Positions 25,176 to 26,842 of a DNA stretch of 64,000 nucleotides are shown here, one piece after another. The stretch's first letter is position 1. Each line of letters opens with the position of its first letter. This stretch comes from Desulfurobacterium pacificum (GTDB lineage Bacteria; Aquificota; Aquificia; Desulfurobacteriales; Desulfurobacteriaceae): NCBI RefSeq assembly GCF_900182835.1, contig NZ_FXUB01000002.1, positions 62,001 to 126,000 on the forward strand. The letters run 5' to 3'. The translations under genes were made by a program, and so were the position numbers. The notes below the pieces were generated by a model. The model worked only from the letters and a program-made list of their open reading frames with translations. It did not search any database and was not told where the DNA came from.

Positions 25176-25616
25176 TTAAGCTGCCTTTCCTAATATCTTT
25201 CTCACTATTTCTTCAGCAATTTGCTCAGCTTCTTTCTCTAACTTAGCTTTCTCTACCTCAAACGCAGACCAAATCTCCTGCTTGGCACTCTCTATCTTAG
25301 CAGCAGCTTCTTGGTGAGCCTCTGAAAGAATTCTGTCTCTTTCCTTCTTAGCTTCTCTAACCGCTTCATCTATTATCTCTTTCGCTTTGGCTCTTGCTTC
25401 TGCAAGAAGTTTCTCTACTTCTTCCAGTAAGCTCTGAGCCTTCGCCTTTAAGGATTCAATTTCTGAGTAATGTACTTCCAATTCTTTTTCTCTTTCTTCC
25501 ATGAGGCGTAATAACGGCTGGAAAAGGAATTTGTTGATTAAGAACATAAAAACGAGGAAGTTAATAGCTTGTACGGAGAGCCATAACCAGCTGATGCTGA
25601 CTATACTTTCTTTCAT
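25176..25616 (-). CDS. ATP synthase F0 b' subunit
   Basis: Second b-type stalk subunit, 146 residues from the ATG at 25616. One membrane helix (WLWLSVQAINFLVFMFLINKFLF) is followed by QPLLRLMEEREKELE and a long coiled coil. The start codon overlaps the mnmA stop (ATGA) and has AGGAG upstream; a longer frame opening at 25685 would run through the end of mnmA and is unlikely. It leads the ATPase genes proper. Confidence 0.92.
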   Translation of the reverse strand: MKESIVSISWLWLSVQAINFLVFMFLINKFLFQPLLRLMEEREKELEVHYSEIESLKAKAQSLLEEVEKLLAEARAKAKEIIDEAVREAKKERDRILSEAHQEAAAKIESAKQEIWSAFEVEKAKLEKEAEQIAEEIVRKILGKAA

Positions 25617-26659
25617 CTCCCTACTCCTTGAGGTTCTATTATTTCTCCTCCTCCCATGAGGAGATTGTTGTAATAAAAGGCACACACCTGTCCTGGTGCT
25701 GGAGCTTCAACTTTCGGGCGTAATTTTACACAATAAATACCATTTTTTAAATACTCTATTTTTCCGATATTGACAGGTTTCGCCCTGTACCTTATTTGAA
25801 CAGAAATTTCCTCTTGATTCGGGACTAAATCCGGAAGAAGATGCCACTCCACATCTTTCACGAATACTTCCTCTTTGTAGAGCATCTCTTTTTTTCCCAC
25901 AACAATCTTACGTTGATAAGGCAAAACCTTTATAACGTAAAGCGGATACTTGTAAGGAATGTTCAAACCCTTGCGTTGTCCAACCGTATAGGAATACGGA
26001 TATTCATAACTTCCTAAAACCTCACCACTTTGAAGAACAAACTTTCCAGGAAGCGGAGGAATAAAACGTTTCAAAAACTCCCTATAATCACTTTTTATAA
26101 AACAAACATCTTGACTCTCTTTTTCCTCCCACTCATAACCTAAGTCTTTAATTAACTGAGAAACTTCTTCCTTTTTAAAATCACCGAGAGGTAAAAGCAA
26201 ATACTTTAAATCTTCTGATCGAACCATAGAAAGGAAATAAGATTGCTCCTTTTTTCTATCTTTTCCCCTCTTTATCAACTTTCTATTCCACTGAGAAAAA
26301 TACTCTATTTTTGCGTAGTGACCTGTGGCAATATAAGAAGCCTTTACTTCCTTTCTTATTAATTCCAAATACTTTATCTTTATTTCCCTATTGCATAGAA
26401 CACAGGGGTTAGGAGTTAACCCTTTTTTGTAATAGTCGATAAACCTTTCTATTACTACTTCTCTAAACTCTTTAGAAAGGTCTAAAACAGTTAAGGAAAG
26501 GTTTAAAAGAGAAGCCTTTTTTCTAACTTTATCTACATCAGCATCAGGAAAAAGTTTGAAATATACAGGAAGGACATTAAAACCCTGCTCTTTTAATATG
26601 AGAGAGGCGAAAAAACTATCTATTCCACCGCTGAAGCCTACTATTACTTTTTCTTTCAT
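25613..26659 (-). CDS. mnmA: tRNA 2-thiouridylase MnmA
   Basis: ATP-dependent enzyme that thiolates uridine 34 of tRNA-Lys, -Glu and -Gln. The PP-loop is FSGGIDS (residues 9-15; the usual V is I), the sulfur-handling cysteines are C86 in TPNPCVLCN and C186 in ESQDVCFI, and the segment YSYTVGQRKGLNI is typical. At 348 residues it is normal. There is no clear ribosome-binding site before the ATG. It heads the ATPase operon with an ATGA overlap, and lies 28 bases behind a strong intrinsic terminator in its own leader. Confidence 0.95.
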   Translation of the reverse strand: MKEKVIVGFSGGIDSFFASLILKEQGFNVLPVYFKLFPDADVDKVRKKASLLNLSLTVLDLSKEFREVVIERFIDYYKKGLTPNPCVLCNREIKIKYLELIRKEVKASYIATGHYAKIEYFSQWNRKLIKRGKDRKKEQSYFLSMVRSEDLKYLLLPLGDFKKEEVSQLIKDLGYEWEEKESQDVCFIKSDYREFLKRFIPPLPGKFVLQSGEVLGSYEYPYSYTVGQRKGLNIPYKYPLYVIKVLPYQRKIVVGKKEMLYKEEVFVKDVEWHLLPDLVPNQEEISVQIRYRAKPVNIGKIEYLKNGIYCVKLRPKVEAPAPGQVCAFYYNNLLMGGGEIIEPQGVGR

Positions 26660-26679
26660 GGTACGGATATTTTATCAAC

Positions 26680-26712
26680 AAAAAAAGAAGGGCGCCCGTT
26701 GCAGGCGCCCTT
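26680..26712 (-). terminator. Leader terminator (attenuator) upstream of mnmA
   Basis: A nine-base-pair GC-rich stem, AAGGGCGCC (26688-26696) with GGCGCCCTT (26704-26712), has a seven-base loop. On the minus strand it is followed by CTTTTTTT, a textbook intrinsic terminator facing mnmA. No minus-strand gene lies upstream, so it either attenuates the mnmA-atp transcript or ends a short leader RNA. Confidence 0.75.
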
Positions 26713-26721
26713 TACATCTAT

Positions 26722-26746
26722 GGGGAGGAGGGAGGGGGATAGGGGG
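26722..26746 (+). other. G-quadruplex-capable G-run
   Basis: Four G runs of three or more (GGGG, GGG, GGGGG, GGGGG) are separated by loops of one to four bases. It lies on the plus strand, the template strand for the mnmA-atp transcript, between the predicted start point and the leader terminator. The core GGGGGAT resembles the dispersed GGGGATTTT motif. Confidence 0.6.
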
Positions 26747-26758
26747 TGTCTGCTATTA

Positions 26759-26786
26759 ATAATAGTTATCAATTTCAATTTGTCAA
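26759..26786 (-). promoter_or_regulatory. Promoter for the mnmA-atp operon
   Basis: On the minus strand a consensus TTGACA (26786-26781) and TATTAT (26764-26759) are 16 bases apart. Transcription would start near 26752 and pass through the C-rich leader and terminator before mnmA. Confidence 0.65.
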
Positions 26787-26842
26787 CTTCCCGATGCCGT
26801 TTAGTTTGAATTTTAATCAAGAGAAAGAAATTTATCCTGCAA

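Follow-up and report, generated by a model that had tools for sequence, protein, structure and literature searches.

A conserved C-rich small RNA gene with a Fur-type promoter block, predicted upstream of mnmA in Desulfurobacterium pacificum

The 64-kb stretch of D. pacificum DNA that was analysed (the window) carries at 26786-26680, on the minus strand, a compact small-RNA unit whose features are collected in Table 1. A C-rich segment (26749-26722) lies between its promoter and a hairpin that is followed by a T run. The unit is located before mnmA, confirmed by NF001138, and seven ATP synthase genes (b', b, delta, alpha, gamma, beta and epsilon) follow 3' of mnmA on the same strand, as an earlier sequence-only reading of this DNA had described. 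Upstream is a divergent gene that is YhaM-like, scoring below the model cut-off. The mnmA start (ATG, 26659) has no evident Shine-Dalgarno sequence, and its distance to the hairpin agrees with the 28 bases given by that reading.

Table 1 Features of the small-RNA unit and its neighbour in the window
Feature	Position	Strand	Basis
-35 hexamer TTGACA	26781..26786	-	promoter scan; kept in 21/21 copies
-10 hexamer TATTAT	26759..26764	-	16-nt spacer from TTGACA
Operator-like block ATTGATAACTATTATTAATA, overlapping -10	26754..26773	-	conserved in 21 copies; resembles fur2 sites
Predicted small RNA, ~72 nt	26680..26752	-	covariance model match, 88.6 bits
C-rich core CCCCTATCCCCCTCCCTCCTCCCC, 24 nt, predicted single-stranded	26722..26745	-	identical in 21 genomes; unpaired in folds
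Intrinsic terminator hairpin AAGGGCGCCUG-CAA-CGGGCGCCCUU	26688..26712	-	terminator scan and folding
Seven-U tract of terminator	26680..26686	-	sequence
TAAAAT, tentative candidate for the -10 of mnmA's own promoter	26669..26674	-	by eye; similar hexamers in several relatives
mnmA, neighbour, probably outside the small-RNA unit	25613..26659	-	NCBIfam NF001138 above cut-off; adjacency lost in 7/20 genomes

The promoter, which had been called a consensus one, is TTGACA-16-TATTAT with 11 of 12 consensus matches and is the best promoter-like site in the 16-kb region scanned. The hairpin is the strongest terminator-like site in that region; it has 11 pairs, 8 of them G-C, where nine pairs had been counted, and the C-rich leader and the T run (seven T) were also as described. 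The sequence between promoter and terminator is AGACACCCCCTATCCCCCTCCCTCCTCCCCATAGATGTAAA. The 5' end of the RNA was placed from promoter spacing and the 3' end from the U tract. The RNA folds with -20.4 kcal/mol compared to -13.6 +/- 2.3 for shuffles (z = -3.0), and the predicted fold is a single terminal hairpin with a bare 5' half in which the C-rich segment is single-stranded. We infer that the small RNA is transcribed in D. pacificum.

The core CCCCTATCCCCCTCCCTCCTCCCC was found in 21 Desulfurobacteriaceae genomes from 7 genera, one copy each and all identical. The pattern ACACCCCCTATCCCCCTCCCTCCTCCCC, with at most three mismatches, occurs once each in 20 of the 22 family genomes searched and is absent from 39 other genomes of the class; the 21st copy lies upstream of the mnmA of G003, and the 83%-complete G001 has no copy of the C-rich RNA. 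A 20-row alignment has 35 invariant columns, chiefly the core. Across the same genomes, mnmA has a DNA identity of 54-63%, and only 35-45% at third codon positions. The identity of the core against this background therefore indicates strong selection. Promoter, core and terminator stay together across the 21 copies, and in genus g7 one pair of the terminator stem is changed on both sides (GC to CG or UG). Because the whole unit recurs in 21 genomes, a chance origin is implausible. Among 84,980 species, each represented by one genome, the only records with the exact core (11) are from Desulfurobacteriaceae; none was found in viral contigs, and the plasmid collection gave no match to the C-rich RNA. 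The Rfam search returned no family above its gathering score for this RNA. A permissive search gave no credible family either; its best sub-threshold match, SprD (25 bits, gathering score 100), was rejected as an identity. The D. pacificum small-RNA gene is real, strongly conserved and new to Rfam. As for trans-encoded small RNAs, its own promoter and intrinsic terminator are conserved as a unit, and independently of the neighbouring genes. We predict from the sequence that the element is almost certainly a stand-alone RNA gene, and that it is a stand-alone, trans-acting small RNA we consider reasonably probable.

Regarding the control of this gene, 20 nt over the -10 hexamer are conserved around AATGAGAACTATTATTAATA in all copies, and the block contains a Fur-family 7-1-7 box, TGATAACTATTATTA, with a computed match at 12 of 14 fixed positions. 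There are two Fur-family genes, fur1 and fur2, in the D. pacificum genome. The box consensus with at most two mismatches occurs at 15 places in this genome, and those in promoter position belong only to the small RNA, fur2 and a peroxiredoxin-like gene. The exact operator sequence, when searched for elsewhere in the genome, gave intragenic look-alikes only. We then used a weight matrix built from the RNA's own blocks, and scored each site against 500 shuffles of the same sequence. In 13 genomes the matrix detects sites upstream of fur2, at a distance of about 30-70 nt, and every one ranks within the top 2.5% of its shuffles; the combined Fisher value of 1.5e-15 assumes independent genomes and overstates the case because these are relatives, between which the tests are not independent. 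The matrix gave no signal upstream of the fur1 paralogue (0.66). The likeness to the fur2 sites is a statistic of motifs in promoters that are AT-rich and come from related genomes, and fur2 appears to regulate itself.

The nearest solved structure to Fur2 is that of B. subtilis PerR. Fur2 keeps the D of CGKIxD, where PerR has aspartate, and PerR models rank first in NCBIfam, below their cut-offs. Since no clear box was seen in feoAB promoters at nine loci, an iron-uptake regulon is unsupported, and a regulator common to iron-uptake genes, as for RyhB, PrrF, FsrA and IsrR, was not found. The PerR-like character of Fur2 together with the boxless feoAB favours a PerR-like repressor. We regard control of the small RNA by Fur2, or a PerR-like protein, as likely on these sequence grounds, with metal starvation and peroxide both possible as the inducing signal. 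The boxless feoAB, the overlap of the block with the -10 hexamer, and the different or unclear AT-rich blocks of C-rich RNAs in other Aquificota would also suit a small RNA under some other control, the block being mainly a strong -10 region. However, on the upstream side of the -10 the conservation continues for about 8 nt within the spacer, at positions that a plain promoter need not keep, and the resemblance of the block to the fur2 sites far exceeds that of shuffles, which makes control by another regulator unlikely while leaving it appreciable weight. As to the loci themselves, fur2 (G000:C5:73853-74263, minus strand; L073) lies between amtB-like and glnB-like/glnA-like nitrogen genes, and in one genome (G006, L037) the 21-bp operator/-10 block is duplicated in tandem before the C-rich core.

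In the mechanism that we propose, the strong promoter would give a 72-nt RNA in which about 28 nt of unstructured C-rich sequence at the 5' end are joined by a short variable linker to the intrinsic terminator. The PerR-like repressor Fur2, when metal-loaded, would bind the block over the -10 and shut the gene off, so that metal shortage, or exposure to peroxide or oxygen, would switch on synthesis of the RNA. The C-rich segment would then pair with G-rich mRNA sites, mainly Shine-Dalgarno sequences, and lower translation, with the all-C seed giving duplexes that would be stable at the high growth temperature. Action in trans through pairing with mRNAs seems fairly probable to us. The likeliest partners by analogy would be Shine-Dalgarno sequences, with which FsrA and IsrR are reported to pair (PMC9410917). 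Like IsrR of Staphylococcus and FsrA of B. subtilis, the D. pacificum RNA has a single-stranded C-rich segment suited to Shine-Dalgarno sequences, its own terminator and a Fur-family box at the promoter. It is unrelated to them in sequence and is a member of neither family; IsrR is 174 nt long with several hairpins and short C runs (PMC9410917), whereas the D. pacificum RNA has one uninterrupted 24-nt C-rich core and a candidate repressor that looks PerR-like. The Hfq of A. aeolicus showed no detectable binding of C6 RNA (PMC5379935), and therefore no chaperone is indicated for the seed itself.

We also compared the pairing of the RNA with gene starts and with internal segments of the window. 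Gene starts pair moderately better (-13.3 vs -9.0 kcal/mol, 57 genes), which may merely reflect Shine-Dalgarno sequences. Extended Shine-Dalgarno matches in the genome are few and varied; they include the starts of ftsA-like, FadL-like outer-membrane protein, universal-stress-like protein and lipoprotein genes (named by eye), are too few to interpret, and no convincing target set emerged. A porin mRNA was rejected as a target, because the perfect complement at G000:C2:278438 lies upstream of the porin gene's likely promoter and is the other strand of a C-rich stretch before a tRNA-Leu. This CCCCCTCCCTCCTCC stretch lies on the minus strand before tRNA-Leu(CAG) (L084:337-354; G000:C2, ~278436-278453), and the plus strand there is perfectly antisense to a portion of the core. 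Broad G-rich target patterns were uninformative, being flooded by a repeated genomic motif, GGGGGATTTT, with reversed controls scoring equally. The window has 15 copies of GGGGGATTTT against 0.6 expected in 64 kb (e.g. 38959 (+), 45560 (-) and 27293 (-)) and 27 copies of GGGGATTTT against 2.3 expected. The over-represented GGGGGATTTT is on both strands, mostly inside genes, and might be an uptake-type or other genome-wide signal.

That the target searches gave no convincing mRNA would suit a protein-binding decoy, in which the RNA titrates a protein preferring C-rich RNA, such as Rho, instead of pairing with mRNAs. The primary site of Rho prefers unstructured C/U-rich RNA, a type of ligand that the 24-28-nt unstructured C/U tract resembles, and invariance across genera would fit a fixed protein site. 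However, under a mere preference for C one would expect C and U to be interchangeable and the UAU to be free to move, yet no such change is seen in 21 genomes, and we therefore hold the decoy to be improbable compared to pairing with mRNAs.

The sequence-only reading had proposed either conditional antitermination or a small leader RNA. The latter is close to our prediction. For the former, a signal would open a conditional terminator before mnmA and the ATPase genes, and a strong terminator does sit between the promoter and the same-strand mnmA. In transcription attenuators and terminator riboswitches, too, many genomes have a promoter, a leader and an intrinsic terminator ahead of a gene; here, unlike in those, there is neither an alternative structure nor a fixed downstream gene. 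In the 20 genomes with readable flanks, mnmA is directly downstream in 13, with about 20 to 170 nt between it and the terminator. In the other seven, the next downstream gene is convergent and the terminator therefore cannot attenuate it; the unit precedes an oppositely read selA-like gene in G007, G012, G016 and G019, and the next gene is convergent in G009, G014 and G017 too. When the 3' arm of the terminator was blocked in silico, no alternative structure common to the copies was found, nor was there a small ORF common to the copies that could encode a leader peptide; the conserved alternative hairpin that the earlier reading had suggested looking for in relatives did not appear. It is the unstructured C tract, and not any alternative pairing partners, that is most strictly conserved. 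In several genomes there is a TATAAT-like hexamer by eye between terminator and mnmA, e.g. TAAAAT in D. pacificum, and mnmA may therefore have its own promoter. We consider an attenuator very improbable, which corrects a plausible but wrong reading of the region before mnmA and the ATP synthase genes. A common signal for tRNA thiolation and ATP synthesis, also put forward earlier, is unsupported, as nothing found places mnmA and the ATPase genes under a shared signal. Finally, that the conserved element is DNA, its G-rich template strand acting as a G-quadruplex or protein site and the RNA being a by-product, is scarcely credible: the complement GGGGAGGAGGGAGGGGGATAGGGG does fit a four-run quadruplex pattern, but its loops would be free to vary, and such an element would not need the kept consensus promoter, the operator block or a terminator with a pair changed on both sides.

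A covariance model built from 20 copies was searched against 136 Aquificota genomes. The 21 copies scored 51-90 bits, and other C-rich RNAs of the same build came next at about 30-42 bits. A second C-rich RNA of the Desulfurobacteriaceae has AATCCCCCCTTTTCCCCCTCCCTCCCCTTTAT followed by a hairpin and T (C1:649417-649486 (-) in the D. pacificum genome). A family denoted f3 has AAACACCTCCCCCCTCCCTCCCCC behind a TTGACA promoter with AT-rich palindromes, and in another, f4, AAACTCCCTCCCCCTCCCTCCCC precedes TTTTTTGG and a hairpin. Rfam has no family for any of these RNAs. From the sequences we regard the groups as likely homologues and no more than that, because the model E-values are rough and C-rich sequences resemble each other. 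Of the f3 loci L118, L130 and L131, the first two have a perfect 11-bp palindrome, ATTAATATAAA-AGA-TTTATATTAAT, that overlaps the C-rich RNA's promoter, which suggests a different operator there. The second C-rich RNA with its terminator, AATCCCCCCTTTTCCCCCTCCCTCCCC, lies behind tRNA-Glu(UUC) in 10 of 10 loci inspected (L119; L120-L128) and may be liberated from the transcript of that tRNA. This tRNA is among the known substrates of MnmA, and this link is perhaps a coincidence.

One match of the model, at 35 bits, is in A. aeolicus VF5 (G060:C1:989751-989817 (+)) and falls inside n68/Aae-65 (989704-989840 (+)). In the parts of the source available to us, n68 is listed with 476/756 dRNA-seq reads, corresponds to Aae-65 of an earlier RNomics cloning study and is given no function (PMC4227106, ref. 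85 therein). We checked the coordinate frame by Rfam matches to tmRNA (1153498-1153844 (-)) and SRP RNA (1303772-1303857 (+)), which agree with the published coordinates, 1153499-1153856 and 1303758-1303875 (PMC4227106). The n68 promoter, TTGACA-16-TATAAT, predicts a start within 1-2 bases of the reported 5' boundary, 989704. Since the match lies inside a detected RNA, one member of the wider group is a real RNA. Aae-65/n68 was found with a model built from Desulfurobacteriaceae copies and shares with them the consensus promoter and a C-rich tract, CTCCCTCCCTCCCCCTCCCTCCCC, with a GC hairpin and a T tract behind it. Its 5' part is longer and includes GGGAG, a segment capable of pairing with the C tract; the Fur-like block is not seen, and it adjoins a permease gene and not mnmA. 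It is likely homologous by sequence to the Desulfurobacteriaceae RNA, although it may be an analogue, because C-rich sequences easily resemble each other. The comparison gives this orphan RNA relatives and a role that can be tested.

Small RNAs as a rule evolve quickly, yet the 24-nt C tract is frozen across genera whose mnmA third positions are nearly saturated, and similarly built RNAs are found throughout a deep-branching phylum of heat-loving bacteria. To our knowledge, very little is known about small-RNA regulation in Aquificota. It is tempting, but rather doubtful, to suppose that Aquificota share an ancient class of C-rich small RNAs built on CCCCCUCCCUCC and present several times per genome, one PerR-like-repressed and often beside mnmA and a second behind tRNA-Glu(UUC), jointly serving as general anti-Shine-Dalgarno RNAs (or Rho/ribosome decoys) that would turn down translation when hot-growing bacteria meet redox or metal stress. 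The system allows testing whether all-C seeds serve base-pairing regulators at high temperature, and suggests a PerR-type repressor that controls a small RNA.

An insertion-sequence-like end (CCACCATGTATTGAAC and variants) abuts the small-RNA promoter in three genomes (L008, L014/L037 and L048), and in one genome a transposase-like C-terminus does so.
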